The notes below the pieces were generated by a model. It did not search any database. It saw nothing but the letters and a program-made list of their open reading frames with translations, and had not been told where the DNA came from. Positions 29,992-62,684 of a stretch of 64,000 nt of DNA are shown piece after piece. A program made the translations under genes and the position numbers. The stretch comes from Geotoga petraea (GTDB lineage: Bacteria; Thermotogota; Thermotogae; Petrotogales; Petrotogaceae), in NCBI RefSeq assembly GCF_900102615.1, contig NZ_FMYV01000008.1:1-64000 (forward strand), written 5' to 3'. Within the stretch, counting starts at the first letter, position 1. The number at the start of each line of letters is the position of its first letter.

Positions 29992-31836
29992 TTATTTTAT
30001 GAATATGTATGTTGGGTTGGGGATGGATTTTTGGATTTGTTCTATTGTTTCTATGGTTGTGCTTTTTTGTTTTATTAGTATTATGTTGTTGTTTATTGTT
30101 GGGTTGTATAGTATGTATTCTGGGGAATCTATGTTTGTGAATTTTGTTATTGTGTGAGTTTTTTGTTTTGTTTCTTCGAATTGTTTTATTTTTTCTTCGT
30201 AGTTTTGTGGTTTTGTTGGGTCTGTGTATGTGTATTCTGGGGTTATTTTTTTTATTTGGTTGTATATTTGTTCTGCAAAGTTTGTTGGGATTTTTTGTGA
30301 TGTTTGGATTACTGCTATTTTTGTGTTTTGGGTTTGGTATAGTTTGTTTATTATTTTTTCTATTTCTTTTTCTGAGTTTAGTGTTATTTCTGGATTTTTG
30401 AATAGTGTTTCGAATTCTTTTTTGTCTTTTATTGTGTTGTCGGATGATTCTTTGACAAATACTCCCAATATTCCAAGGAATATTCCAAGTACTCCGCCTA
30501 TTGCGAGGATGAGTGTTTTGTTTGGGGCTATTGGGTTTTCTGGTTGGTATACTACTTGAACCATTGAGAATTTTGGTGTATATAGTTTTTGGCTCATTCT
30601 TTCTTGTTCAAGGGTGTTGTAGAACATGTTGTATTTGCTTTCTATTACTTTTTGGTCTTTCATCATTTGTAGGTATTGGTATACCACAGGTGATTTTTTG
30701 TTTATTTCAGTGTCTATTACAGAGAGCATTTGTTGGTAGACCTGTTTTGTGACGTCGAATAGTTCCAGCTGTGTTTGGGTTTGTATGTATTGGCTGAATT
30801 TTTCTCTGTCTGTTACAGAGAGATATGTCATATTGTTTTCGAGTAGTTTGTTTTGTTGTTGTTTTAGTTCGTTTTCTGTTACTGTTATTACGGATTCGAG
30901 TTCTCTTATCCTGGGTGAGTTTGGTTGGTTTAGTTTTAGTGTTTCGAGCTCTATTTGATAATTTATTAGTTTGTTTTTTAGATTGGATAGGTTGCTTTGT
31001 GATGCTGTGAGCATTAGTTCTTTCATTTCTTCGCTTGTTTCTGCAAGGTTTTTTTCTATACTTTGTAGCGTTATTTCGAGTTGTTGTTTTTCTTGATCCA
31101 TTTTTAAAAGTTTTAGGTATGTTTCTTCGTAGTAGTTTATGAGGTCTGTTTGGATTGCGTCGTCGCTTATTTTGTTTTCGATTTTGTAGTCGAATACTTG
31201 TTTGTTTATTTTGTTGAATTGTTGTTCCAGGTCTGTGAAGATAGATTCTATTTGGTTTATTGTTTTGTTGGATCTTCCGAGTGTGTATTCTTTTTCGTAG
31301 TCAAGGTAGTATTGGTATGTTAGTGATACTATCGAAGCAGCCTGTGTTGGGTTGCTGCTTTCATAGCTTATTTTTACGAAGTTTGTTCCTTCTACGTTTT
31401 GTATTGATATTTTTTCTCTTATTGATTTTATGAATCCTCTTTTTGTGTATTCTATTCCTCTTATTTCTGATAACCAGCTTTTGTTTTGGTTTGCTTTTTC
31501 TACCATGTTTAGTTGGTCTACTACCTGGCCAAGTACTCTGTCGGATTTCATTCTTTCTATTTCTGTTGTTAGAGAGTTTGTACTTCCACCGCCAGAAGGG
31601 ATGGATATCCCCGCCATTGAAGCAAGACCAGCGTATTGACTGAGCGATGATGTCGAAGAAGTTTGGCCTTCGAACTCGACAAGTTGTTCTGCTTTGTATG
31701 TTGGGGTTGTAAAGTAGAACAGGTATATGAGAGTTATTGCTACTGTTGCAACGAATATTAACGTGAATGTCCATTTTCTTCTTTTGAATATTCTTATTAT
31801 GTCTGAAAAAGTTAATTCCATCTCTTGGTTTTCCAT
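29992..31836 (-). CDS. Wzz/GumC-like chain-length protein with degenerate kinase-like tail, copy 1
   Basis: A 614-residue inner-membrane protein. The N-terminal cytosolic ELTFSDIIRIFKRRKW precedes TM1 (about 20-42). A long periplasmic helical region with coiled coils (about 170-390) follows, including KLNQPNSPRIRELE. TM2 is about 440-460 (ILAIGGVLGIFLGILG) after the PENPIAPNK loop. The last 130 residues resemble the start of a tyrosine autokinase domain (KIAVIQTSQK...), but Walker A GK(S/T) is absent, so no kinase activity is expected. It sets polysaccharide chain length with Wzy. The paralogue is at 34202-36040. GGAGG site before ATG. Confidence 0.88.
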   Translation of the reverse strand: MENQEMELTFSDIIRIFKRRKWTFTLIFVATVAITLIYLFYFTTPTYKAEQLVEFEGQTSSTSSLSQYAGLASMAGISIPSGGGSTNSLTTEIERMKSDRVLGQVVDQLNMVEKANQNKSWLSEIRGIEYTKRGFIKSIREKISIQNVEGTNFVKISYESSNPTQAASIVSLTYQYYLDYEKEYTLGRSNKTINQIESIFTDLEQQFNKINKQVFDYKIENKISDDAIQTDLINYYEETYLKLLKMDQEKQQLEITLQSIEKNLAETSEEMKELMLTASQSNLSNLKNKLINYQIELETLKLNQPNSPRIRELESVITVTENELKQQQNKLLENNMTYLSVTDREKFSQYIQTQTQLELFDVTKQVYQQMLSVIDTEINKKSPVVYQYLQMMKDQKVIESKYNMFYNTLEQERMSQKLYTPKFSMVQVVYQPENPIAPNKTLILAIGGVLGIFLGILGVFVKESSDNTIKDKKEFETLFKNPEITLNSEKEIEKIINKLYQTQNTKIAVIQTSQKIPTNFAEQIYNQIKKITPEYTYTDPTKPQNYEEKIKQFEETKQKTHTITKFTNIDSPEYILYNPTINNNIILIKQKSTTIETIEQIQKSIPNPTYIFIK

Positions 31837-34176: not shown

Positions 34177-34204
34177 TAAAAAAGCTGCTTTTCAGCAGCT
34201 TTTA
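34177..34204 (-). terminator. Terminator of wzz copy 2
   Basis: AAAGCTGC (34181-34188), loop TTTTCA, GCAGCTTT (34195-34202), with an A run at 34178-34183 giving the minus-strand T run. Confidence 0.8.
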
Positions 34205-36040
34205 TTTTATGTATACGTATATTGGGTTTTTGATTGTTTTGTTTATTTTTTCTATTGTTTCTATTTCTGTGTCTTTTTCTTTTATTAGTACTATGTTTTT
34301 CTGGATCAGGTTTTTGTATAAAAGGTATTCTGAGCTTTCTATTGAATTAAATCTTACGATGAATTTTTCTTTTTGTTTGTCTTCTTCAAACTGTTTTATT
34401 TTTTCTGCGTATGGTTTGTTTTCTGTTGTGTCTGTGAACTCTATTTCTGGATCTATTGTTTTTATTATGGAATGAACTTTTTTTGAATGGTTGTTTAGGT
34501 TGTTTTGGGTTTCTATTATTCCGATTTTTTTGTTTTGTGTTTCGTATATTATGTTCACTATTTTTTCGAGGTCTTTTTCTGATTTTATGGTTGTTTCTGG
34601 TATTTTGAACAATGTTTCAAATTCGTGTATGTCTTTTATTTTGTTGTCGGATGATTCTTTTACAAACACTCCCAATATTCCAAGGAATATCCCAAGTACT
34701 CCGCCTATTGCGAGGATGAGTTTTTTGTTTGGGGCTATTGGGTTTTCTGGGACGTAGCTTGCAGTTATTATGTTGAAATTGCTTTCGTACAATGATTTTT
34801 TTAAGTTTTCTTGTTCAAGTGTGTTTAGTATTGTGTTGTATTTGACTTCCAATATTTTTTGTTCTTTTTGTAAAAGGAAGTATTTGTACATTATAGGAGA
34901 TCTACTCGCTATTTCTTGGTCTACCAGTTCAAGCATTCTGTTTGTTACCTGTTCTGTGATGTCAAAGAGTTCTAACTGTGTTTTTGTTTGGATGTATTCG
35001 TTGAATTTTTCTCTGTCTATGGTGGCTAAAAAGTTCATATCACTCGATAATATGTTTTGCATTTCTTCTTGAAGTTGTTGTTGTTGGACTTGAATAGTCG
35101 AGCTCAACTCTCTTATTTGTGGTGAGTTTGGTTGGTTTAGTTTCAATGTTTCAAGTTTTATCTGATTTTGTATTATTTGATTTTTTATTGTTGTTATATT
35201 TGAATTTGATGAGTTTAACAGTATGAATTCTTTCATTTGAGGATCCATTTCAAAGAGATTTTTTTCTATTGTCTCTTTTTTTATTTCTAAATTAGCTTTT
35301 TGTGATTCAAGCTGAATTTTTTGCATGTATGTATCTGCGTAATATTGGATCATTGGGTCTGTTTGTTCTGTGCTGGTTGTTATTTTGTTTTTTGTCTGAA
35401 AATCCAGTAGTTCTTTGTTTACTTGGTCGTATTGTCTTGAAACATCGTCAAATACATTTTGAAGTTGTGTTAGATATTTTTCAGTATCTTTAAAATAATT
35501 TTCTTTAACAAATTGTGTGTAATAATCGTATGTTAGTGACACTATTGAAGCGGCTTGTGTTGGGTCGCTACTTTCGTAAGATATACTGAGCATGCTTGTA
35601 TTTTCAACTGTTTCAATAGTTATTTTATCTTTTATTGATTTTATAAACCCTCTTTTGGTGTATTCTATTCCTCTTATTTTAGCAAGCCAGTTTTTGTTTT
35701 CTTCTGCTTTTTGTACCAAGTTTAATTCGTCTACCACTTTTCCTAAAACAGCATCTGATTTCATTTTTTGTATCTCGTTGTCTAACCCTGTGTCTCCTGT
35801 TGAACTGCTAAGGCCCGCAAGCGCTGCAAGACCAGAAGCATCTCCAAAAGATATTGAAGAACCAGATGATTTTTTGTATTCGACTATTTGTTCTGCTTTG
35901 TAAGTTGGCGTTGCAAAAAAGAACAAATAAACTAAAGTTATTAAAACAGTTGTTATGAATATTCCAACAAACAACCATTTTCTTCTTTTAAAAATCCTTA
36001 TTATGTCTGAAAAAGTTAATTCCATTTCTTGGTTTTCCAT
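34202..36040 (-). CDS. Wzz/GumC-like chain-length protein with degenerate kinase-like tail, copy 2
   Basis: Paralogue of the protein at 29992-31836 with the same plan. The N-terminus MENQEMELTFSDIIRIFKRRKW is almost identical over 22 residues. TM1, a long helical periplasmic region and TM2 (ILAIGGVLGIFLGILGVF) follow. A C-terminal domain has KIGIIETQNNLNNHSKK where a kinase Walker A would be and lacks GK(S/T). DNA around TM2 is far more alike between copies than the rest. ATG at 36040 has GGAGG at 6 bases; the GTG at 36046 overlaps it. It shares a long divergent promoter region with the first lipoprotein gene. Confidence 0.87.
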   Translation of the reverse strand: MENQEMELTFSDIIRIFKRRKWLFVGIFITTVLITLVYLFFFATPTYKAEQIVEYKKSSGSSISFGDASGLAALAGLSSSTGDTGLDNEIQKMKSDAVLGKVVDELNLVQKAEENKNWLAKIRGIEYTKRGFIKSIKDKITIETVENTSMLSISYESSDPTQAASIVSLTYDYYTQFVKENYFKDTEKYLTQLQNVFDDVSRQYDQVNKELLDFQTKNKITTSTEQTDPMIQYYADTYMQKIQLESQKANLEIKKETIEKNLFEMDPQMKEFILLNSSNSNITTIKNQIIQNQIKLETLKLNQPNSPQIRELSSTIQVQQQQLQEEMQNILSSDMNFLATIDREKFNEYIQTKTQLELFDITEQVTNRMLELVDQEIASRSPIMYKYFLLQKEQKILEVKYNTILNTLEQENLKKSLYESNFNIITASYVPENPIAPNKKLILAIGGVLGIFLGILGVFVKESSDNKIKDIHEFETLFKIPETTIKSEKDLEKIVNIIYETQNKKIGIIETQNNLNNHSKKVHSIIKTIDPEIEFTDTTENKPYAEKIKQFEEDKQKEKFIVRFNSIESSEYLLYKNLIQKNIVLIKEKDTEIETIEKINKTIKNPIYVYIK

Positions 36041-36364
36041 TTTCACCCTCCGATAATAAAAAAAATAAAATTAAAAATAATATTAGTGTGTACGTTCTTT
36101 GAGTCAATTATAGCATATATAAAGTAATCCAAGTTAATGCCACTTTATGTTTTATTAAATTCTTATATCACCTGATCAATTAATTTTTCATTTGCATTTT
36201 TGATTGTATATAATTAATTAATCAAACGTTCGATTAATTAATTTATTACTATAATATATTTATTTTTTAAATTAATTGGTTAATCTTTATTTTATTTTAT
36301 ATCATAAATTAAAATTATGGTATAATTTTTTTAATGGAATCTAATTTTTGGGGAGGTTTTTTTT
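36041..36364. promoter_or_regulatory. Divergent regulatory region with a 32-base palindrome
   Basis: Non-coding DNA between wzz copy 2 and the first lipoprotein. It holds the left copy of a 41-base direct repeat (36166-36206). A 32-base near-perfect palindrome (36212-36243) is centred on AACGTT with arms AATTAATTAATC / GATTAATTAATT and one mismatched pair. A TATAAT box lies at 36321-36326 for the rightward gene, and GGGGAGG at 36351-36357 is its ribosome site. The palindrome has the size of a dimeric repressor operator. Confidence 0.65.
36166..36206 (+). repeat. 41-base direct repeat, left copy
   Basis: Differs at two positions from 43302-43342. The two copies bracket the pair of lipoprotein genes. 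The copy begins TATCACCTGATCAATTAATT and ends TTTTTGATTG. Confidence 0.85.
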
Positions 36365-39300
36365 ATGAAAAAATTATTATTTGTTTTTTCATTGATTTTA
36401 GTATCGTTATTGCTTGTTTCATGTTTTCCTGGACAAGAGCAAGATGAAACGATCAATTTAACTATTCAACCAGATTCGAGCTCTTTTATTTCAGAATATG
36501 ACGGTCACACGGTTAATTGGAATAAGATTGAATATTCCCTTTTTTATAATGGAAACTTTTTAAAAGAAGGGGACCTAACTGTTAACGAAATCTCTGGACC
36601 TTTTGTTTTTAGCAATTTGGTTTCAGGGAATTATGAAGTTAATATTAGAGTTATTAACGATGGATTTGTAATAGCTAAAATACAAAAATCATTTAATTTA
36701 ACAAAAGATAATAATACATTTAACGCTAGTTATGAAATGATGGATAGTAATTTAGAAATTGAAGTTACAGACAATAGATCAGATAAATCTTTGGATGTTA
36801 CTCATAATATTATAATTAGTAATGAAAGTGGTATTATTGCAGAAGATTCTATCACTAATGAGGCAACATCAAATTTAGTTTTTAACCCTGGTTTATATAC
36901 TTTAACAATTAATCAAATAACCACTGAAAATGATACAACTATATCTGCAACAACAGTTGTAGAAAAATCCAATTTTTATTCTCCTGGTTATAAATATGTT
37001 TCCACTTTGGAAATTACAGATGATTCAGTGGATTTATCTGACCCTGAGACCCCAGTTGACCCAGAAGACCCTGATGATTATGATGTTGATTTATCTTTTG
37101 ACATTTCTGATGCAGTTGCAATTGCTTCTAATAGCGAAGAAGAGTCAACAAATAGCCTCAACAGAAGCAGATATAGTATCCCAGATAACTATGGAAAAGT
37201 TTTAACTCTAAAAGATTTAAAAACAAAAAGCAGTAGTTCAAATAAACTTGTAAAAATTTTGACAGATGGCTCTATTGAATCAATAATGAATCTCCCAGAA
37301 GGGTATAACCCTCCTGAAATAGCTTATGTTTCAACAGAAGAAGACGGGAGTGTTTATATAATCTTTAGAAACTTTTTAAGTTTTAACAATGGAGATAGAA
37401 GATTTACTGCACAATTTATAAGAGTTTTCCCAGATAACGAGTTTCAAGTTTTATGGCCTTTAGATCCTTTCATTAATGATCCTTGGAATGAAGGAAATAT
37501 TGAGGTTAGAAATGATTATTACCAAGAAGGTGAATCAGTTTTAAAGGCAGATAATGGTTATATATATTTCAAAACTAATAATTGGAAAAATGATGGAGAA
37601 AAGAATAATATTTACGAATATAGGCCCAATCAAAATAACACTCCAGAATTAGTTACTCCTGATTACAAGTTAAGAATAAGAAGATTCAAAGCGGATGTTG
37701 ATGGAAACATTTATATTGAATTTTCAATGGGAGGAAACTCACAATTCAAAGTCTATAAAGACGGAACATACTATGAAAGCAATATTTATTATTCAAATAC
37801 TGATTATGCTAATAACATTCAAACTTTTATTCCACAAAGGGAAAAATCTGGAATAGTTGCAAACGGAAGCGATATAAGAGGTAAAAACGGAATAGTTAGA
37901 ATAGACATTGAAACAGACAATTATGAAAAAGATTTTGACTTCATTTCTGTTTTTAACAATAATCATAATACTGATTATAGAAAGTACGAAAATAACGACA
38001 ACGATTATATTATAGAAGAAAAATCTAATGATTATTTAAGAAATTTAAATTCTCAATTCTCTTTTTATGAAGTTGATGATTCTTTTTATACAAATGATGC
38101 TTTGGATTTAGATAAAATAAATGCTTTTATCTCCAAATATTCAACAGATACTAATTTAGAAATTACAGCTAACGATATTGAAGATATAGAAAATTGGGAA
38201 AAAGTATTTTATGAATTTAGTGATTCAAAGGATGAAACAACTTTACGAAATAAAGAAATTATTTTAAAATATTTTTTTAATGATGATGAAGAAGTATATA
38301 ACAACATAAAATCATTATTAGATAAAACAACAATTTACGAAAATAAAGTGTTTTTTGATGAAAGTGATTCTTATAGAACCCCAGATTTTAGAAAATATGA
38401 ATGGAAAGATACTCTAAAAAATGAAGATGGTTCTTTAAATAAAGATTTTGTCGATTTTATTTTTAGAGATAGGCAATTTAAAGATGATGAAATAGAATAC
38501 CTTAAAAATTGGTCTCAATATCATACTTGGGATACTTACAATCAAGAAGATCCTTTATATGATTTTTATAAGAAAATATATGACAAAGATTACAGAAATA
38601 TAGTAGATGCTGCAAGAGATTGGAATGTTAGCTATGATTGGTTTTTTGATGAAAAATATATTCAAACTTTAAATTTATATCAATATGATTTTATTACAGA
38701 GTTGTTGGCAAGTGATGGGAACATCGATTTCTCAAAACTCGAAAAACTAGTTAGTTATTCTATGCCTAAATTCTCATTATCTCAAGAGAATAAAGATTTG
38801 TTAAATAGCTGGGATGGCTATTATTCTCAAGATATATTTACTTCAAATTATCTTGATTCTATGCATTTAGAAAAATTTTATGAATTTTATTCTGAAGATT
38901 TATTTACTATATTGAATGATATTAATTCTGCTAATGATCATAGTGTATTAACTCATAATGATACTTTATATGTTCCTGAATTTTATTATTTTGAATGGTC
39001 TGATTTTATGTATGATGACATGGGAAACTTAGATAGAGAGTTATTGAGTTATTTTTTAATGAATTTTGATGCTAATGCAGGTGTATCTAGAGATTCTACT
39101 CAACTATCTTATCAATTTACTACTCCTGAAGGAACTCATATAATTGTTGATTTAATAAAAAACAATGATTTAACCGATGAAGCCTACAATGCTTTTTTAA
39201 ATTGGAATAATTATTTACCAAGATATTATAGTTACAATGATTCTTATATTTACCCAGCTATAGATGATATATCTATTTATAAATACGCTCATTATTTATA

Positions 39301-41401
39301 TGAGTATGGTTCAAAAGAAGAAAAATTAGTAAACTTAACAGAAAATGTTTTAATTCCTATAACTGAAAAGAGTACTTCTACCACATATGAAATAAGGGAC
39401 GTATATTTAGATGATGCTGGAAATATAAAAACAAATACTATATTAAAGTTGTTGGAAAACCCTTATGAGGATTATACAGAGACTCAAATTAATCTTCTAA
39501 ATAATTGGGATGGTATTTTTCATAATGACTGGGAAAGTTTTGAAGAAACAAGCACAGAATATAAAACCCATTATATAGTCAATGAAATTTTAGAAAATAT
39601 AAATGAAATAAGTTTAGATTTTTTAACTAATGCTGAAGATAAAAATTTAAAATCTATGAACTATTATAGATTAAAATGGGACAGTAGTTTATTAAATGCT
39701 TCAGAAGAATTAGATGAAACTAAATTCAATAATTTTATAAGCTATTTTGATGGAATAATTGATTCTTCAAAATACTCTTTTGAAGAAGTTCAGAACTGGA
39801 ACATGTATTACAGAACAGATAATTCTTATGATGGAGAATACGAAGACCCTTATGGATTATTAAACTCTAATATGATAGAAAAATACAAACTATTCATTTC
39901 TCCTCTTAACAACAATATTCTTAAGAAAACTGAAAAAAATTATAAAACCTTTTATGTAAGAAAATTTGAATTTAAGGATAAATTCTATGATGATTTAGGA
40001 AATTTATCTGAAGAAAAATTAAATTATCTTTTAGACTTATATGATTTATACGGATTCACATATGATAGAACCGCCTTATTGGAAGAGTTTAAGAATTGGA
40101 ACGAATATTTTTATTATATTTATGATCGCTCTACTTATGAAAAAGAATTTTTGAACGATGAAATAAGCCATTTTTTCAAAAATATTAGATATGATAACAA
40201 TAATATAAAGGCAAATCTTATGGCAGAAATACCAAATGATTTGATTGATAGAATTTATTATAAAGTATTTACTCTTAAAGACAAATTTTTGAACGAAGAT
40301 ACCTCAGTTAATCAAGAGTTAGTTAATGAATATTTATCATATTTACCTTTAGAAATTTCTGAAGAAATGTTTAATGAAATATTCGGAAATACTGAATATA
40401 TTCTTCCAAACTATTACGATGAATATACTGATTCTGATAACGACTATATAAAAGAAAAATATGATACTTTTTCTAAATACTATTCAGATTATTCTTCAGA
40501 ATTGTTGTATAACTTGAGTAAAAATATTACAAATTTAAACTCTAAATCGTTTGGATTATTTTCAAAGTATTCATCACTAAATACTTGGAGTATGAATATT
40601 TATGAATTTGACTGGAACCCAGATTACTTAAATGCAGATGACACAATAAACAAAGAAAAGTTTACCAAACATTTCAACGATTACTTTATAGATGGTTTTA
40701 ATTATATTGAAGAAGAAAAGATATTCGAAAATCTAAATAACTGGGATGGAATGATATATCGTATAGATAATAATAACCAAAATAATCCATTTTACAAAAA
40801 TAATGTCGAACCAAAATTTATTTATGATTTTGCTGTAGAATATACTAATTTTATAAACAATTATTTTGATGGAATTTTGATTAGCGATTGGTTACGAGAT
40901 AATGTTGGAAATTCTTATATTAGTTTTTATAATATTAAGGAGCTTTTTTATGATAGCAATGATAATTTATACGCTATGTACAGTAACACTTGGGGAGATA
41001 GTTTAGATGGACTATCAATTTTCAAATTAATGAATTCAAATTCTGATAAAGATTTGGATTATTTAACAATAGAACATACAGAATATGCTCCATCTAACGT
41101 CGAAATAAAAGGAGATTATATTTACTACATCCATTCAGAAAAAAAAGATCAAAGTACTTCCTATAAAAAAATTGCCAGATTACATTTAACCACTAAAGAA
41201 ACAGATAATTTGTTGGATATTTCTGGAATGCCAAAATTAGATATTTATGATTATGACGTGACTTCAGATAACTCAACTATGTTTTTGAGTGCCATTGATT
41301 GGAGCAAGATTGAAGATGTAGTTATAAAAGTTGACTTAGTCAATGGAACATTCACAAAAATACCATCTAATATGAAATTAGATTCAATAAAAGTATTTTA
41401 A
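36365..41401 (+). CDS. Giant lipoprotein with internal repeats
   Basis: A 1678-residue lipoprotein. A signal peptide ends in the lipobox LLVSC (lipidated Cys at about residue 20). Residues about 30-225 look like beta-sandwich modules, followed by an acidic Pro-rich linker (PVDPEDPDDYDVD). The region from about 240 to 540 and the last 170 residues resemble beta-propeller blades and align with the next gene. Between them, about 600-1500, are seven or more degenerate repeats of about 80-140 residues. Each has a (Y/F)-x-W/L-K-D opening, a DG/E-x-x-N-x-E-x-(L/F) middle and a closing N-W-(N/D)-x-Y/W. No enzyme motif is recognised. Surface-exposed role is inferred. Confidence 0.85.
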   Translation: MKKLLFVFSLILVSLLLVSCFPGQEQDETINLTIQPDSSSFISEYDGHTVNWNKIEYSLFYNGNFLKEGDLTVNEISGPFVFSNLVSGNYEVNIRVINDGFVIAKIQKSFNLTKDNNTFNASYEMMDSNLEIEVTDNRSDKSLDVTHNIIISNESGIIAEDSITNEATSNLVFNPGLYTLTINQITTENDTTISATTVVEKSNFYSPGYKYVSTLEITDDSVDLSDPETPVDPEDPDDYDVDLSFDISDAVAIASNSEEESTNSLNRSRYSIPDNYGKVLTLKDLKTKSSSSNKLVKILTDGSIESIMNLPEGYNPPEIAYVSTEEDGSVYIIFRNFLSFNNGDRRFTAQFIRVFPDNEFQVLWPLDPFINDPWNEGNIEVRNDYYQEGESVLKADNGYIYFKTNNWKNDGEKNNIYEYRPNQNNTPELVTPDYKLRIRRFKADVDGNIYIEFSMGGNSQFKVYKDGTYYESNIYYSNTDYANNIQTFIPQREKSGIVANGSDIRGKNGIVRIDIETDNYEKDFDFISVFNNNHNTDYRKYENNDNDYIIEEKSNDYLRNLNSQFSFYEVDDSFYTNDALDLDKINAFISKYSTDTNLEITANDIEDIENWEKVFYEFSDSKDETTLRNKEIILKYFFNDDEEVYNNIKSLLDKTTIYENKVFFDESDSYRTPDFRKYEWKDTLKNEDGSLNKDFVDFIFRDRQFKDDEIEYLKNWSQYHTWDTYNQEDPLYDFYKKIYDKDYRNIVDAARDWNVSYDWFFDEKYIQTLNLYQYDFITELLASDGNIDFSKLEKLVSYSMPKFSLSQENKDLLNSWDGYYSQDIFTSNYLDSMHLEKFYEFYSEDLFTILNDINSANDHSVLTHNDTLYVPEFYYFEWSDFMYDDMGNLDRELLSYFLMNFDANAGVSRDSTQLSYQFTTPEGTHIIVDLIKNNDLTDEAYNAFLNWNNYLPRYYSYNDSYIYPAIDDISIYKYAHYLYEYGSKEEKLVNLTENVLIPITEKSTSTTYEIRDVYLDDAGNIKTNTILKLLENPYEDYTETQINLLNNWDGIFHNDWESFEETSTEYKTHYIVNEILENINEISLDFLTNAEDKNLKSMNYYRLKWDSSLLNASEELDETKFNNFISYFDGIIDSSKYSFEEVQNWNMYYRTDNSYDGEYEDPYGLLNSNMIEKYKLFISPLNNNILKKTEKNYKTFYVRKFEFKDKFYDDLGNLSEEKLNYLLDLYDLYGFTYDRTALLEEFKNWNEYFYYIYDRSTYEKEFLNDEISHFFKNIRYDNNNIKANLMAEIPNDLIDRIYYKVFTLKDKFLNEDTSVNQELVNEYLSYLPLEISEEMFNEIFGNTEYILPNYYDEYTDSDNDYIKEKYDTFSKYYSDYSSELLYNLSKNITNLNSKSFGLFSKYSSLNTWSMNIYEFDWNPDYLNADDTINKEKFTKHFNDYFIDGFNYIEEEKIFENLNNWDGMIYRIDNNNQNNPFYKNNVEPKFIYDFAVEYTNFINNYFDGILISDWLRDNVGNSYISFYNIKELFYDSNDNLYAMYSNTWGDSLDGLSIFKLMNSNSDKDLDYLTIEHTEYAPSNVEIKGDYIYYIHSEKKDQSTSYKKIARLHLTTKETDNLLDISGMPKLDIYDYDVTSDNSTMFLSAIDWSKIEDVVIKVDLVNGTFTKIPSNMKLDSIKVF

Positions 41402-41438: not shown

Positions 41439-41462
41439 TATTAATTTTTGGGAGGTTTTTTT

Positions 41463-43295
41463 ATGAAAAAAATAATGTTTTTTATGGCTTTAATTTTATC
41501 GGTGATTTTCTTAGTATCTTGTGTTCCAAATGATTTAGAAAATAATATTCCAGATAACGAAGTTGTTCACAACACTCTTTTTGATATATCTGGAGCAGTT
41601 GCTATAACAACAAAAGGAGAAGTTGAAGAACAAACTCAACAAACTTATGAAACAAGGAATGGAATTTATTTTACAAAAAACACCTCTTCTAATGTTATTT
41701 ACAAAATAACTGATGAAGGAAGCTTGACCAGTATTCTCAACGTAGATGAAGAAATAGATTTGCCAAATATAGCGTTTATTTCTGTTGGAGATGACGACAG
41801 TTTGTACATAGCTTTTGAAAGTATGTTTGCATACAACAACGGAGATAGAACTATTAACATGCAATTTGTCAGAGTCTTTCAGGATAATAGTTATAGTGTA
41901 ATTTGGCCAATAGATTTTAGCAATTTTGAATATGACCAAGGATTATTAGACATGTGGAGTTGGGAATGGGGAAATAGAGAGCCAATAATAAAGAAAAATG
42001 GAAATATTTATTTCAAGGTTGCCTACAACGGGAAACACAACATTTATAAATATAATATAGAAGAAAATAATCAATCAGAACTTTTGACTCCAAATTTTGC
42101 CGTTAGTATAGATAAATTTGATACTGACACAAAAGATAGGGTCTATATTAAAGGAACGTCTCAAAAGGAATCAGGTGAAAGTGCTAGCTTTTTAAGAGTT
42201 ACCAATGAATCAGGTAGTTTTTATCCAAATGCTATCTATTATAATTCCACTAATTCAAAATACCTTTACGATTTTGTAGTTGATCCTGTTAATGATTTGC
42301 TTTATATGATTGGTAATAACCTTAACTCTTCTTTAGATGATAATAGTGATGGAATTATGAAAGTAGATATAAATGATGGAGATTTTATTTATAGCAATAT
42401 TTCTCCCGACTTCGATGCTAATAATATATCTATTGCTGATGGTGGAGATAATACTGATTTTACTCTGTTTACTTATGGCGATATCACTCTCATTCCTGAT
42501 TCTACTGAAGATACAAAAAGTCTTTATTTAGAAGGTTATGCGTGGAAAGATATTGTCACAGGTGATGACGGAGTGCCTATAAAAGAAAAAGTTCTTGAGA
42601 GAATAAGAGGCCTGTACTCTTCAGAGCCTGAGTTTATTTCTGAAGAAAAATGGGAAGAACTTAGAGATTTAGATCTTTCAACCATTACACAAGATCTGGT
42701 TTCTGAAGAAGGTAGTAGAGAGTTTCTTAACAAATATATTTCTGGCACTTTATTTAAAGATTGGGATAGAGAACATTGGGCTGAACTAGGTTATGGTTAT
42801 TTTGATTATAACAAGGTTGAGGACCTTTATGTTAATGAAGAAGGCGATGTTTTTAGCCTTGGTATTTATTCTCAAAGAATAGAAGGTACTCTATATAATC
42901 ATCCTCGTTTAGTAAAAATAATTGATAATGGAAGTAAATTAGACCTTAAAACATTAGATACTAACAGAATGCTTAACTATCCAACTCAATTTAAATACAA
43001 AGATGAGAAAGTTTTTTTCTCTTATAGCGAAAAGACTCAAATGGATATTATGGAATCAAACTTACAGTCTATAGCAAGTTTGGATCTATTCACTGGTGAA
43101 GAAAATGTTTATGATATATTTAATAAAGGTGTTGAAATTTACGATTATGATGTAACTGATGATGGCAAGTATATCTATATCACTGGTTATATGTGGGATG
43201 AGAGTAAAAAAGGTGTTATTAAGTACAATACTTCTACAAATACCTATCACAGTTTACCTTTTGTAGAATCACTTAATTCTATTAAAGTTTTCTAA
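41463..43295 (+). CDS. Lipoprotein paralogous to the giant lipoprotein, with one repeat
   Basis: A lipoprotein of about 610 residues. The signal peptide ends in FLVSC (lipobox). The mature part starts FDISGAVAITTKG and closely follows the giant lipoprotein from its residue 240: AFISVGDDDSLYIAFE, NNGDR, QFVRVF and WPID all recur. The C-termini also match (YDYDVT to SIKVF). In place of the large repeat region it has a single related unit, LEGYAWKDIVTGDDGVPIKE. ATG at 41463 follows GGGAGG; the in-frame TTG at 41448 lies within that site. Function unknown; propeller-like fold inferred. Confidence 0.85.
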   Translation: MKKIMFFMALILSVIFLVSCVPNDLENNIPDNEVVHNTLFDISGAVAITTKGEVEEQTQQTYETRNGIYFTKNTSSNVIYKITDEGSLTSILNVDEEIDLPNIAFISVGDDDSLYIAFESMFAYNNGDRTINMQFVRVFQDNSYSVIWPIDFSNFEYDQGLLDMWSWEWGNREPIIKKNGNIYFKVAYNGKHNIYKYNIEENNQSELLTPNFAVSIDKFDTDTKDRVYIKGTSQKESGESASFLRVTNESGSFYPNAIYYNSTNSKYLYDFVVDPVNDLLYMIGNNLNSSLDDNSDGIMKVDINDGDFIYSNISPDFDANNISIADGGDNTDFTLFTYGDITLIPDSTEDTKSLYLEGYAWKDIVTGDDGVPIKEKVLERIRGLYSSEPEFISEEKWEELRDLDLSTITQDLVSEEGSREFLNKYISGTLFKDWDREHWAELGYGYFDYNKVEDLYVNEEGDVFSLGIYSQRIEGTLYNHPRLVKIIDNGSKLDLKTLDTNRMLNYPTQFKYKDEKVFFSYSEKTQMDIMESNLQSIASLDLFTGEENVYDIFNKGVEIYDYDVTDDGKYIYITGYMWDESKKGVIKYNTSTNTYHSLPFVESLNSIKVF

Positions 43296-46996: not shown

Positions 46997-47374
46997 GTAA
47001 TAAGCACCCGCCTTGGTTAGATTATATCAAATTTTTTGAAAAATTTATAAGATAGTATTATAGCATAAAAAATTGCTATTGCAATTTTTTGTTGCTGGGG
47101 GTTAGTGAGAATTTGTTTTACAAATTCTCAGTTGTTGGTGTGGGAATTATTTCATAATTCCTGTTGTTGGTTGTTAGTGAAACAAAGTGCCTAAACTCCC
47201 CTGTGCTTCGCACTTCCCCTCTAACACATTTAGAGGGGATTAGTGCTTAAACACCCCTGTGATAGAAATCATAAATGATTTTTGTTGGAGAATCGAGGTT
47301 GGAGGGGAAAGATGCATAGTGTTTTTTCATATGCTATAATATTTATAATAATTAAATTTAGGGGGGTTTTTAAT
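46997..47374 (+). repeat. Intergenic stretch with repeat island and divergent promoters
   Basis: Contains the leftward GGDEF promoter (47021-47029). A hairpin AAAAAATTGC-tatt-GCAATTTTTT lies at about 47067-47090. GAGAATTTGT-ttt-ACAAATTCTC and GGAATTAT-ttc-ATAATTCC both have GTTGTTGG tails, and one two-hairpin module is at 47186-47245. For the rightward receptor gene there is a TATAAT near 47334-47339 and a GGGGGG ribosome site at 47361-47366. Confidence 0.75.
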
Positions 47375-49288
47375 ATGAAAATCAGAACAAAGATTATTTA
47401 TTTGATTTTGTTTGTTTCTGTTTTACCGCTTTTGGTTATTTCTGTATTCAGTTTTGTTAGTTTTTACAACACTTCTGAAAATTCTATCGAAACTTCAATT
47501 TTAAATCAGCAGAGTAACCAAATCCAGGCTGTTAATTCTTATATAGAACCAGTAAAAGAATTGACTAATTATATTTCCATTAATTTAGCAAATAACGGGC
47601 TTACGTGGACTTTTCAGAATTTTGGAAATATTGTAGATTCTTATTCAGCGGTGGATAATGTTTATCTTGCTTTGAACGATGGAACTTTTATTACAAAACC
47701 AGACAGAGATTTAGAGAATTACAATGCTTTAGAAACCGTTTGGTATAAGAATGCTTTTGGAAAAGAAGATGTAGTACTTACCTTACCATATAAAAAAGGT
47801 TTTGGTGAAAATAAGTTAACGATAACTTTTGCTTCAGCTTTCACAAGCTCTGGGATGAATGGAGTTTTAGGGATAGACATGAATTATAATTCTTTGGTTA
47901 GCTTGATTTCTAACACAGTTTACGACGGTCAATTCAACTATATTATTGACTCGGATGGAAACCTTATTGCCTCTTCTGGAGATTTACCTTTTGATTATAA
48001 TAGCATTCCAAAAGAATCAAAAGGCAAAAACATTGTCACTGTAGAAGATAGAAATTTTTATTTTAAAGATTTTGAGAATAGAGACTGGACATTGTATTCA
48101 ACAATTCCAACATCTCTTATTTCTAGCACGTCTTTTGCTAATTCTATCAACATAGCTATTTTAGCTCTTGTTGTTTTTGTTGTAGCAATTATATTATCAT
48201 ATTTTTTCATAAGATCAGTTATACGACCTATAAAAGAATTATCTGTAAAAGTAAACTCTTTTGGTAACGGGGATTTGACTGTAGACTTTAAGACAAATAA
48301 GAATGACGAAATTTCTATAATAGCGAAAGAATTGGATAGCATGGCCAAAAAATTAAGGGTATCTCTAATAGAGTTTAGAAATATTGGGGTGAAAATAGAA
48401 ACTTCTTCCAAGAGTCTTTCTGAAATATCCAATAAAAATACATTAGAAAACAAAAACATTTTAGATCAAACAGAAAGGATAGAACAAGACACTGAAAGTT
48501 CTGCATCTGCAGTAGAACAAGTTACTGGTGGAGTTCAAGAAGTTGCTTCTTCTGCCACTTCTATATCAAAAGAAGCTCAAAACTTAAACGAATATGCCGA
48601 AGACACTTATAAAAACACCTCTGATGGTCTTGAAGCAATTGGTAAGATAAAAAATGTTATAGAAGAAGCTGTTAAACAATCAAATAAAACCCAAAAAAGT
48701 GTCGAAGTTTTAAATGCAAATACAGAGGATATAGAATCCATTATTGAAACAATAGACAATATTACAGAACAAACTTCTTTGCTTGCGCTTAACGCTGCAA
48801 TAGAAGCGGCAAGGGCTGGAGAAGCTGGGAGAGGATTTGCAGTTGTTGCAGATGAAATAAGAAAACTTGCAGATGATTCAAAATCATCTACTGAAAAAAT
48901 AGCCAAAGTATTAGACAAAATTAAAAATAACACACAAACTGTTAATGATGGTACAAATAAAACAGTTGGTGTTATCCATGAAATAGACGACGAAATGCAA
49001 AATATATCTGATAGATTTAACAAAATCTATTCTAAGATAGAAGACATGAACAATGGTATTGAAAATCTAACAGCAAGTTCAGAAGAACAGAGTGCAAGTT
49101 CCGAAGAGATGAGTTCTGCTATGGACAAGGTGGCTAAGTCTATTCAAGAAATCACCGAGAAGATTTCTCTTACTATAGAATCCGTGAATAAACAGCAGAG
49201 CGAAAGTGAAAAGGTTGAGTTGAACAGTGAAGAGCTTCATGATCTTTCCGCTCAGTTAAATAGAAATATAAATAAATTTAAACTTTAA
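47375..49288 (+). CDS. Methyl-accepting chemotaxis protein with periplasmic Cache sensor
   Basis: A 637-residue chemoreceptor. TM1 is about residues 7-28, and a dCache periplasmic domain covers about 35-260 ([15 protein letters not shown], then WYKNAF). TM2 is about 265-292, followed by HAMP ([20 protein letters not shown]) and a signalling domain. The signalling tip reads [20 protein letters not shown], shown here up to the conserved 20 residues. The long frame upstream from 47282 has no ribosome site, whereas ATG at 47375 follows GGGGGG by 8 bases. Ligand unknown. Monocistronic; repeats lie on both sides. Confidence 0.92.
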
Positions 49289-51965: not shown

Positions 51966-52340
51966 TTATATTTTTTTATTAATTAAATCAATAATTTTCT
52001 TTACATCTCTCAAAGCTATTTCAGCATCTTCTCTTATTATATCCATGAAATTAGGATACCTTATATTGACTCCGTAATTAGTTAATCTAATACATTCTTT
52101 TGTTATTTTTTCAAAATCTTTATCTCTCTCTATACACTTTTTGTTTAAAAAAACTAAGTCATGTGTTTTTGCTATTGGCTCACCATTAAATATCAAATAA
52201 GCTTTCAAATATTTCTCTGCAGCTTGTTCACAATGATAACAGATTATCTCTAATGGAGGGGTGTCGATTTCAATCATTGTTTTTGCTGTTAATAAATCTT
52301 TTTCAGCAATTTTTATCCATTCAAGATGCTCTTTTTTCAT
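51966..52340 (-). CDS. HEPN domain protein
   Basis: A 124-residue all-helical HEPN protein. CYHCEQAAEKYLKAYLIFNG followed by KTHDLVFL is the hallmark of the COG2250 group, and NIRYPNF closes the domain. HEPN proteins paired with minimal nucleotidyltransferases form toxin-antitoxin-like modules in which HEPN is the toxin. ATG at 52340 has GGAG 8 bases upstream; the ATG at 52355 has no site. The start lies within the MNT gene, an overlap of about 20 bases. Confidence 0.85.
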   Translation of the reverse strand: MKKEHLEWIKIAEKDLLTAKTMIEIDTPPLEIICYHCEQAAEKYLKAYLIFNGEPIAKTHDLVFLNKKCIERDKDFEKITKECIRLTNYGVNIRYPNFMDIIREDAEIALRDVKKIIDLINKKI

Positions 52341-52653
52341 AGATAACAACTCCATTGTTAGAAATCTTATTTTCTAAACTTGTTTTTGAGTTAGCTCTTT
52401 CAATAAATTCTTCTGGTTTATATACAATTATATCTAAAGGGTAATCAATAGAATATCCTATTTTTTCCCTTATATCGTTCATTATTTCTATTTTTCTTTT
52501 ATTTCCATCAGAGATTATACACAGGTCTATATCGCTATTTATGTTTGGATTACCATAAGCATATGAACCAAATAGGTATATTTTTTTAATGTTTTCTGTA
52601 TCTTTTATTTTATTGGTAATTTTTTCTATTTCATTTTTAATATTTTTGTTCAT
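52321..52653 (-). CDS. Minimal nucleotidyltransferase (MNT), partner of HEPN
   Basis: A 110-residue nucleotidyltransferase with LFGSYAYGNPNINSDIDLCI, a full GSx10DxD motif. DYPLDIIVYKPEEF supplies the third acidic residue. Known MNT antitoxins neutralise HEPN toxins by adding AMP. GAGGTG lies 6 bases before ATG. It leads the two-gene operon. Confidence 0.87.
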   Translation of the reverse strand: MNKNIKNEIEKITNKIKDTENIKKIYLFGSYAYGNPNINSDIDLCIISDGNKRKIEIMNDIREKIGYSIDYPLDIIVYKPEEFIERANSKTSLENKISNNGVVIYEKRAS

Positions 52654-59251: not shown

Positions 59252-59282
59252 AATGCCCCCGCTTAGCGGGGGCTTGTTTTTA
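59252..59282 (+). terminator. Terminator between clpC and rubredoxin, probably bidirectional
   Basis: GCCCCCGC-tta-GCGGGGGC at about 59254-59273, followed by TTGTTTTTA on the plus strand and ATTTATTAT on the minus strand. Confidence 0.85.
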
Positions 59283-59444
59283 TTATTCAAAAACTTCAAA
59301 ATCTTCTTTGCTTGCACCACAAATTGGACATACCCAATCTTCTGGAAGATCATCAAATGATGTTCCTGGTTCTACACCGTTATCTGGGTCTCCTTGTTCT
59401 GGATCGTAAATATATCCACATATAATACATCTGTACTTTTTCAT
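59283..59444 (-). CDS. Rubredoxin
   Basis: A 53-residue iron protein with two CxxCG pairs, [12 protein letters not shown] and [11 protein letters not shown], giving the Fe(Cys)4 site. It passes electrons to superoxide reductase and rubrerythrin, whose genes precede it in the operon. ATG at 59444 follows GGGAG by 8-9 bases; the longer frame from 59513 overlaps the upstream gene and is rejected. Confidence 0.95.
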
Positions 59445-59479: not shown

Positions 59480-59833
59480 TTATTCTACCTCTATTTTTTT
59501 GCTTGCTTCCCAAAGTCCGTGAATGTTACAATGAGACATTACTAACAATGTTCCTGATTTTGGTAATTTGATTTTTGTTTTTACTTTAGGTTCTCCAACA
59601 ACAGGTCCAAACTCGTATCTTCCTACGTGAACTGTGTTAGGGTCTCCATCGTAATGTACATATAAGTCCATCCATTCTATATGATGTTCTACTGTGTTAG
59701 GATGGGCAATTTCTTTTCCAACTTCTACTTCAACCATAAATGGTTCGTCTTTTTTTACTTTTTCAGGGCTATCGATAGTTGGTACATGTTTTTCGTTTTT
59801 AAAATCGTCTTTTTTAATGATGTCACCAAACAT
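59480..59833 (-). CDS. Superoxide reductase (neelaredoxin / class II desulfoferrodoxin)
   Basis: A 117-residue protein with the catalytic iron ligands in place: [16 protein letters not shown] and SHCNIHG, giving four His and one Cys. It lacks the N-terminal desulforedoxin domain of class I enzymes. It reduces superoxide to hydrogen peroxide using rubredoxin electrons. Middle gene of the rubrerythrin operon, 22 bases after rubrerythrin. Confidence 0.93.
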
Positions 59834-59855: not shown

Positions 59856-60374
59856 TTATTTGTTTGAAAATGATGTAAACATCTCTTTTTTTGCACCACA
59901 AACTGGACATTTTTCTGGAGCTGCGTCCCAAGTTGTGTAGCCACAAACTTCACATATAAAATAAGTTTTCCCTTCGATATCTTTTCCTTCTGTTGCTTTT
60001 TGTTTTGCTTCTGCGTACATACCTTCATGTATTTTTTCTGCTTCAAGAGCAAAGTGAGTGCTTCTTACTGCTTCTGGTTCTTCTTGGAAATCAGCAGAGT
60101 TGTTGTAAACTGGGTACATTTCTTTAATTTCGAAGTCTTCTCCTTCTCTTGAGCTTTCAAGATTTTCTTCTGTTGAGCCAACATAACCTAAAGCTTTGAA
60201 ATGGTTTTTAGCGTGAACGTATTCTGCGTGTGCTATTGCCCTCCACATATTAGCTAAGTTGTCCAAACCCTTTTTTTCTGCTTCATCAGCAAAAATCAAA
60301 TATTTCATATGTGCTTTAGACTCACCACAATAAGCTTCTTCCAAAAACTGTCTAGTCATGTCTCTTTTAACCAT
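59856..60374 (-). CDS. Rubrerythrin
   Basis: A 172-residue peroxide reductase. The N-terminal ferritin-like four-helix bundle binds two irons (EEAYCGESKAHMKY, AHAEYVHAKNH, FALEAEKIHEGMY). The C-terminal rubredoxin-like domain has CEVCGYTTWDAAPEKCPVCG. It detoxifies hydrogen peroxide in anaerobes, complementing the superoxide reductase downstream. ATG at 60374 is 7 bases after AGGGGTG; the GTG at 60383 is in that site. Confidence 0.95.
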   Translation of the reverse strand: MVKRDMTRQFLEEAYCGESKAHMKYLIFADEAEKKGLDNLANMWRAIAHAEYVHAKNHFKALGYVGSTEENLESSREGEDFEIKEMYPVYNNSADFQEEPEAVRSTHFALEAEKIHEGMYAEAKQKATEGKDIEGKTYFICEVCGYTTWDAAPEKCPVCGAKKEMFTSFSNK

Positions 60375-60406: not shown

Positions 60407-60445
60407 AGTTAATTATAACATTTATTTTTGTAAATTATGTTACAA
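60407..60445 (-). promoter_or_regulatory. Rubrerythrin promoter with inverted repeat
   Basis: A TATAAT box on the minus strand lies near 60412-60417. Just upstream, TTGTAA (60428-60433) and TTACAA (60440-60445) form a 6-base inverted repeat with a 6-base spacer. This is the size and place of a redox or peroxide-responsive operator. The regulator is not identified. Confidence 0.45.
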
Positions 60446-60473: not shown

Positions 60474-62291
60474 TTAAAATTCGATTGAATCGAAATTTCC
60501 TTTGAAACTCTTTATGAATTCTTTTGTTTTGTCCAAGTCTTCCAAGATACCCTTGATATTGTTTATGAATTCTTTAACAGATGCAGAGATTTCTTCCGCG
60601 GTAGCAGAACCTTCTTCGGATATAGCTAACAAGTTTTGTACGCTACTTGTAAGTTGTGTTAATTTATCGCCTTCGCTTTGAAGCTCTTTTAATATACTTT
60701 CTATATCTTTTGAAATTACTTTTATGTCTTCTGAAGAAGTTAGATTGGATTTTGAACTTTCTTTTAGTCTAACAGCTTCTTCTTTCATTTGATCGTATTC
60801 TCTATCCACATTATCTGTGAGTTTTTTAATTCCTTTTGAAATATTTCCCAATATTGAAGCTATTTGATTTGCTGCATTTTTAGAAGACTCTGCCAATTTT
60901 CTTATTTCATCTGCAACTACGGCAAAACCTTTTCCAGCCTCTCCGGCTCTTGCAGCTTCAATAGCGGCATTTAGAGCTAAAAGATCTGTTTGTTCTGCTA
61001 TGTTGCTGACTGTTTCAACAACATTCATGATTTCGTTTGCACCTTTGTCCAAGCTTTTTGATTCATCGACTAATTCGTTGAACCTTCCACTCATAAGTTC
61101 TATTCCATCTGAAGCTTTTTCAACCATTTTGGATGATTCTGTTATGTTATCTACGGCCTTGTCTAAAGAAGTGACCATTTCGCTTTCTCTATTTATTATG
61201 GACTGTATTGAATTTACGTTTGATTCTACAACATCTGAAATTTGTTGGGCGTCTTCACTTATTTGAACAGAACTTGTGGCAACTTGCTCAACTAATTCAC
61301 CCATTGAGTCTGAAAGTTCTCTCATCTCGTTTGCCCTTTCTCCAACTTTTGAAGTGAAAGTGTCAATCTCTTCAACGTCTCCAACAAAATCTATGAAAAG
61401 ACCGCTTAAAGTAGTTCTTAATTCTTCAAGCTTTTTAGTCTGTTCTTCTAATGATTTTTCACCTTTAACGAGCATTGGAGAGTTGTAATTTTTATTTTTC
61501 ATGTTTTCTATGGATTTTTCACTTGACTTTAAAGCGTTAGTGTACATATTTCCCATGAAGAAAAAAATAGCTCCAGCACCAACTCCAGTTAAAATACTGG
61601 ATAACCACGATGAATCTATAAACATGTTTAAAACCAAGGAAAGTATAAAAGCACTCAAGAAAACTAAAAAAGTTGTTGAACTAACAAACTTTCTCAAGAC
61701 ACCAAATCCCATTACGCTGAAAAATTTGACTTTTTTGATTTCTGCGTATGGTTTTGAAGCTTTCACCCTTACTTTCATAAAACTACCTTCACTGTCTGAA
61801 CCTTGGTCTAATATTTCGTATTCCATGTTATCGTTGAAATAATCTGCTGCTCCTTCTAAAAGACCCAAAAAGTAATATCTCATATCTCTAAATGATGAAT
61901 AAGTAACAATTGCAACTTTTTCACTCTCTATATCAAAATCAATTCTTGGTGGTCTTGCACCAGGAATTCTTTTTGTTAAAGATTTATGCACGTCGTTCAT
62001 AGCCGCTAAAAAAGATAGAAGGCCTTCTCTTTTGAAAAAATTTGGGTAATATGAATAAAATGTGTTGATGTTTTTCTTACCCATTTCTTTTAGAATTTCT
62101 TCTTTAGTCTTGCCTGTTCCATTTGAAATTGTGTCCACCATGCTGTAAACTTTTTTGTCTTCTACTTCTTCGGTTGGTGTGAAGTATTTATCCGTTGGTA
62201 TGTTTACATTATTCATTGCTTTGTCAACTAAGTTATCCCCAAATAACTTTCTCCAAGTGTCGATCCATGTTCCTACGACCATTCCCTTCAT
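60474..62291 (-). CDS. H-NOX (haem gas sensor) chemotaxis receptor
   Basis: A 605-residue receptor. Residues 1 to about 185 are an H-NOX domain starting [13 protein letters not shown]. The proximal haem ligand is His102 (NDVHKSLTK) and the propionate motif YxSxR is Tyr131-Ser133-Arg135. The distal oxygen-binding residues Trp9, Asn74 and Tyr140 are all present at the same numbers as in the Thermoanaerobacter H-NOX structure. Two membrane helices (about 210-255) follow, then a signalling domain with [20 protein letters not shown]. Both ends face the cytoplasm. Ends 99 bases before rubrerythrin. GGAGG before ATG and an extended -10 at 62343-62348. Confidence 0.95.
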
Positions 62292-62372: not shown

Positions 62373-62684
62373 TTAACTTTTTACTTCGATAATTTTATCC
62401 AGTTTGGTCATCTTAATTAACTTTAAAACGTTTTCTGTTGGCCTATACAATTGCATCTTTTTGTTGTTGTCTTTTAGATATTTGTAAAATTTCACAAGAA
62501 GTCCTATTCCCGAACTATCTAAATAGTTGAGTTTTTTAAGGTCGAAAACTACCTTTTCATTTTTTGTGTTTTTTATCTTTTTTTGAATCTCAATTGTTAC
62601 TTGATTTATGTTGTATACGTCTAAATCTCCTTCAAAATAAATCCAGAAGGAATTATCGCTCATTTCTTCAAATTGTAAGTTCAT
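62373..62684 (-). CDS. STAS-domain anti-sigma-factor antagonist
   Basis: A 103-residue SpoIIAA/RsbV-like protein. The phosphorylatable Ser lies in NYLDSSGIGLLVKFYK, the standard STAS signature. Such proteins release sigma factors or regulate two-component outputs when dephosphorylated. GGAGGAG is upstream of ATG. The divergent neighbour is a GAF protein that could belong to the same partner-switching pathway. Confidence 0.9.
   Translation of the reverse strand: MNLQFEEMSDNSFWIYFEGDLDVYNINQVTIEIQKKIKNTKNEKVVFDLKKLNYLDSSGIGLLVKFYKYLKDNNKKMQLYRPTENVLKLIKMTKLDKIIEVKS

Follow-up and report, generated by a model that had tools for sequence, protein, structure and literature searches.

The window, by which we mean the whole 64,000-nucleotide stretch of DNA that was analysed, is contig 8 of genome G000 (2.17 Mb, 99.75% completeness), a member of the Petrotogaceae-like family f1. 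On its minus strand, positions 60474–62291 encode an H-NOX-MCP chemoreceptor of 605 amino acids with an ATG start, as judged from the open reading frame, Pfam, a PDB match and an AlphaFold model. A sequence-only reading of this DNA had given the same frame to the nucleotide; the strand is added here. It had also reported rubrerythrin, superoxide reductase and rubredoxin genes after the receptor, and all three were found there, on the minus strand. The rubrerythrin (59856–60374, 172 aa) consists of a ferritin-like domain (PF02915, E=7e-22) and a C-terminal rubredoxin-like domain (PF21349, E=3e-12); its NCBIfam match is below the rubrerythrin equivalog cut-off. The superoxide reductase (59480–59833, 117 aa) is of the neelaredoxin type (PF01880, E=3e-31; TIGR00332 over the cut-off). 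The rubredoxin (59283–59444, 53 aa) matched PF00301 (E=2e-26) and NF045768, the latter over its cut-off. Between the rubredoxin gene and the convergent clpC lies a terminator-like hairpin (59255–59273), which was found on both strands. These three genes are referred to below as rbr, sor and rd.

Pfam placed HNOB at residues 2–159 of the receptor (E=8e-43) and MCPsignal at residues 404–535 (E=1e-31). When the receptor was searched against PDB with phmmer, its residues 1–187 aligned with residues 1–187 of Tt H-NOX (1xbn/1u4h/1u55) without a gap (E ~2e-39), at 39% identity to this prototype. The H-NOX domain, which is predicted to be cytoplasmic, was assigned to 61731–62291 of the minus strand from the ungapped alignment to 1u4h/1xbn and a residue table. 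W9, N74, H102, P115, Y131, S133, R135 and Y140 are identical in the window receptor and Tt H-NOX. The gap-free numbering and the residues named by the sequence-only reading were thus both reproduced. An AlphaFold2 model of the domain had a pLDDT of 91, and its top PDB match in Foldseek was the O2 complex 1u55 (TM 0.93). Both the sequence (Pfam) and the predicted fold (Foldseek) place the domain in the HNOB family. The proximal His102, Pro115 and the Y-x-S-x-R clamp for the haem propionates are all present, and so are the features of the O2 subclass, namely the distal Tyr140 with Trp9 and Asn74 and a fused MCP signalling domain with a membrane anchor.

The membrane anchor was assigned to residues ~200–250, where the hydrophobicity profile has one strong segment at ~201–228 and, by eye, a second and weaker one at ~228–250. 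The MCP signalling hairpin covers residues ~307–597 with its tip near residue 439; residues 307–597 align with positions 19–309 of the Thermotoga receptor structure 2ch7. On this sequence evidence the H-NOX domain is most likely cytoplasmic and membrane-anchored, which matches the description of its class in PMC8738867. H-NOX proteins of the O2 type are fused to MCPs and membrane-bound (PMC8738867, PMC12329717).

To see how strictly the pocket is kept, we compared 121 long H-NOX-MCPs, comprising the Thermotogota receptors and loci from genome_contigs. The 80 genome_contigs loci were selected by two patterns drawn from a five-row alignment, and neither pattern contains N74 or Y140. K2, W9, G71, N74, F78, F94, H102, P114, P115, Y131, S133, R135, Y140 and G143 were invariant in 121/121 receptors, whose identity to the window domain is only ~35–67%. 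Judged from these alignments, the residue match to the prototype is far beyond chance, since the pocket does not vary in spite of 39% identity. The sequence-only reading had named the conservation of Tyr140 as a check on its proposal, and this residue was kept in every receptor. In the Thermoanaerobacter structures, W9 and N74 position Y140.

A distal Tyr is needed for O2 binding, and proteins that have it are probably O2 chemoreceptors (PMC12329717, PMC8738867). The closest known system is the H-NOX-MCP of Caldanaerobacter (Thermoanaerobacter) tengcongensis (1u55, 1u4h, 1xbn). Its H-NOX domain has the same pocket residues and aligns with that of the window without gaps, and in both proteins of ~600 aa it is fused to a membrane-anchored MCP. 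The window domain differs in sequence (39% identical), in its Thermotogota host and in its rbr-sor-rd neighbours; no rbr, sor or rd homologue was found within the examined flanks of the Caldanaerobacter locus L153. NO-type H-NOX proteins of Caulobacter and of the facultative anaerobes Vibrio and Shewanella have the fold and the haem ligand in common with the window receptor. However, they have no Tyr at the distal position, do not retain O2 and work with separate kinases or c-di-GMP enzymes (PMC12329717), whereas the window receptor carries both the Tyr and an MCP of its own. From sequence and model together, it is well supported that the gene belongs to the known O2-type H-NOX-MCP kind, and we infer that its product binds haem and O2.

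The gene order H-NOX-MCP, rbr, sor, rd was found in nine genomes of five genera, all in family f1 (the window's, G035, G045, G046, G047, G048, G049, G051 and G054). In these genomes clpC is convergent behind rd, except that the G054 contig has no clpC match. In G053 a contig break falls inside the receptor, and the contig on the rbr side also starts with a receptor end. None of the 7 genomes of the sister genus g4, which also belongs to family f1, has this order, and it was not found in other Thermotogota families. The nearest case there is genus g25, in which two genomes carry rbr-sor-rd ~4 kb from the receptor on the opposite strand. Among 77 loci of other phyla or families, with flanks of up to 8 kb, none had an rbr, sor or rd homologue. 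A receptor directly upstream of rbr-sor-rd is thus confined to a part of family f1. The three-gene order itself also occurs in a genome of family f10, and we take it to be that of TM0657–TM0659 of Thermotoga maritima. The presence of a superoxide reductase somewhere in the genome is uninformative, because 97 of 103 Thermotogota genomes have one. The g4 receptors (L035, L038, L044, L045, L046, L062 and L076) have a different neighbour with the same oxygen-defence theme: in 7/7 genomes a peroxiredoxin gene precedes the receptor on the same strand, at a distance of 3.4–3.7 kb (three genes).

The sequence-only reading had described the neighbourhood as an oxygen-defence operon and had suggested gene order in relatives as a check. 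If receptor and rbr-sor-rd form a true operon, O2 avoidance and removal of reactive oxygen species would be joined by co-transcription and co-regulation. Several observations agree with this. The receptor and rbr lie on the same strand with a gap of 99 bp, in which no terminator-like site was found, and the peroxiredoxin neighbour in g4 also speaks for a link. When the window was compared with 1.6 Mb of G048 plus its receptor locus, the block was retained while the genes on both its flanks were rearranged. However, clpC was retained too, so the conserved order may in part be passive synteny, which alone could suffice, and the 77 other loci have no such neighbour.

The gap also contains a conserved extended -10 element, TGTTATAAT (60412–60420, minus strand), between the receptor stop and rbr and 46 nt before the rbr ATG. 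At this base composition, TGTTATAAT or TGCTATAAT is expected 0.02 times per 120 nt. The element is kept in the window and in g1, g2, g5 and g6, with one base changed in G048, and is weaker in g8. It was also found before rbr in the receptor-less g7 and in G050. From this conservation it is the probable promoter of rbr-sor-rd. In G036, G037 and G050, rbr-sor-rd and clpC stand in unchanged order with no receptor in front. The flanking DNA of G050 (L080) is 88–91% identical to that of G048, and the receptor is replaced by 145 bp. The deletion runs from ~65 bp before the receptor start to about its last 20 codons, and the last codons persist before rbr with one stop. As read from this alignment, G050 lost its receptor in place and retained rbr-sor-rd.

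Adjacency of receptor and rbr-sor-rd therefore held up in five genera of family f1 and did not extend to g4, to the other Thermotogota families or to the loci outside, and the word operon fared worse, given the probable rbr promoter, the receptor-free rbr operons and the deletion in G050. We consider a true operon rather unlikely. These sequences are fairly read as an association at the level of the family, in which receptor and rbr-sor-rd each have a main promoter of their own and read-through may occur; an obligate operon is not supported.

On the other side of the receptor, 81 bp upstream, a gene for a STAS-domain protein resembling anti-sigma-factor antagonists lies on the minus strand (62373–62684; PF01740, E=9e-17; TIGR00377). 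In the neighbour comparison this gene adjoined the receptor only in the window's genome. Beside it, a divergent gene for a GAF-PAS histidine kinase and the gene of a response regulator extend from 62903 past the end of the window (L077:8374-12037). We rejected an operon of receptor and STAS gene because the adjacency is unique to this genome and the divergent kinase and regulator lie on the other side of the STAS gene. The STAS, kinase and regulator genes are probably a separate regulatory unit.

Clostridia are the main known source of O2-type H-NOX chemoreceptors. In Thermotogota, H-NOX was found in 46/103 species genomes and was fused to an MCP in 45 of these 46. The receptors of the 45 genomes are ~600 aa long, apart from a shortened or contig-end frame in two drafts. 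In the tree, a fully supported branch separates the Thermotogota receptors from those of Bacillota and Calditrichota. G045 carries a second H-NOX-MCP (L047, contig C4), which lies away from rbr, is strongly diverged on a long branch, is 41% identical to the window domain and has its pocket residues intact.

CheW was found in 45/45 genomes with an H-NOX-MCP, and the receptor in 0/17 genomes that have no CheW (Fisher p=2e-5, with genomes counted without correction for kinship). Flagellin was present in 44/45 receptor-bearing genomes, and the exception (G054) is a draft in 520 contigs. The window's genome has three CheW matches and two flagellin matches. O2-type H-NOX-MCPs are thus common in Thermotogota and limited to genomes with chemotaxis genes. 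The receptor proposed by the sequence-only reading is thereby supported as an O2-type chemoreceptor by its sequence, its predicted fold, its strictly conserved pocket and its co-occurrence with CheW in all carriers of the phylum. It is likely that this receptor steers the swimming cell away from O2.

For living conditions, the function of the prototype is called "not yet demonstrated", and Ct H-NOX binds NO and CO as well as O2 (PMC9814294). The same pocket could in principle serve a chemoreceptor for which NO is the physiological signal. We regard this as improbable, because Tyr140, W9 and N74, which are tied to O2 rather than to NO binding, do not vary among the 121 receptors. Moreover, the phylum's one H-NOX without an MCP part, a stand-alone protein of 173 aa (L059, G004:C269), has lost W9 and Y140 (L9, F140) and is the sole H-NOX without the O2 residues in the phylum. 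The neighbouring genes in two lineages of family f1 are also for defence against O2 and peroxide.

The O2-type receptor that we favour needs haem, and the genes for making haem are scarce in this phylum. Ferrochelatase was found in 0/103 Thermotogota genomes, with 8/14 controls positive. HemB (ALAD) and HemC (porphobilinogen deaminase) are required for every tetrapyrrole. Both were found in the same 4/103 genomes only (G015, G078, G079 and G080), with 11/14 controls positive. Three of these four genomes carry the receptor, and 42/45 receptor-bearing genomes have neither gene. In the window's genome, HemB, HemC and HemH (ferrochelatase) were all absent. The window's organism and 42 of the 45 receptor-bearing Thermotogota appear, from their gene content, unable to make tetrapyrroles. 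The pocket for haem and O2 is strictly kept even in these lineages. Among receptor-bearing genomes of other phyla, HemC was found in 40/46 of those tested (contigs of at least 3 kb), and the genome of Caldanaerobacter subterraneus is one of the six without it on such contigs. Ferrochelatase was over the cut-off in just one of the other-phyla genomes, so most of these hosts would need the siroheme route. Cytochrome bd subunit I, which as another haem protein would hint at a supply of haem, was not found in the window's genome and was over the cut-off in only four genomes, in family f7.

Because the pocket residues are invariant and the genes for haem synthesis are absent, external haem would be needed, and the haem of the receptor is probably taken up from outside. 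FecCD-type transporters were found in 102/103 genomes, but this family also moves B12 and siderophores and its presence says little about haem uptake. Given the missing synthesis, the receptor may often be without its haem. That a cell unable to make haem uses the receptor chiefly in a haem-free state, as an apo or redox sensor, is very improbable: the absence of HemB, HemC and HemH here and the heme-free redox sensing by H-NOX in Vibrio cholerae (PMC8738867, PMC12329717) would fit, but the known Cys-zinc mechanism cannot operate in a domain with no cysteine, and His102, P115 and the Y-S-R clamp are invariant also in lineages without haem synthesis. Haem-free Cys-zinc redox sensing was rejected on this ground; every Thermotogota member has at most one cysteine in its H-NOX domain.

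Taken as a whole, an O2-type haem chemoreceptor, a separately promoted rbr-sor-rd and imported haem make up the best explanation of the locus, and we hold it with good confidence. O2 would enter the cell and bind the ferrous haem of the cytoplasmic H-NOX domain, where Tyr140, positioned by Trp9 and Asn74, would hold it. The haem and the domain would then shift shape, and by way of CheW the MCP hairpin would alter the activity of CheA, making O2 a repellent for the swimming cell. The products of rbr, sor and rd would remove superoxide and peroxide. These three genes would be transcribed mainly from their own promoter, and read-through from the receptor may add some expression. The haem would be imported, tetrapyrrole synthesis being absent.

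The gap in haem synthesis was absent from the sequence-only reading and is the part that deserves attention. Tentatively, and at somewhat less than even chances, we propose that Thermotogota without tetrapyrrole synthesis keep, under strict selection, an O2 receptor whose sole cofactor, haem, comes from other organisms. If so, O2 avoidance would hinge on the haem of the community, and with no haem available the receptor would not report O2. An alternative source, which is pure speculation, would be the porphyrins of oil-field habitats. Since a haem-dependent receptor is found in organisms without haem synthesis, its physiological role can be tested through the haem supply. G048, with the receptor, and G050, without it, are a natural deletion pair. 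In a literature search that covered few subscription journals, we found no paper on haem scavenging in H-NOX hosts and none on H-NOX together with rubrerythrin; a search for H-NOX and haem biosynthesis in anaerobes gave only passing mentions of H-NOX in reviews.

Other features were seen elsewhere in the window. Two Wzz/GNVR chain-length-determinant genes of 614 aa each (29992–31836 and 34202–36046) are both closest to one G048 gene, in a region that resembles a cell-surface polysaccharide locus. Two plus-strand reading frames of 1678 and 615 aa (36365–41401 and 41448–43295) had no Pfam match at E 1e-6 and no homologue in the part of G048 that was searched. Overlapping HEPN and nucleotidyltransferase genes at 51966–52653 are arranged like a HEPN-MNT toxin-antitoxin pair. 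The window also encodes a second MCP (47282–49288), which has a PDC sensor domain and HAMP.
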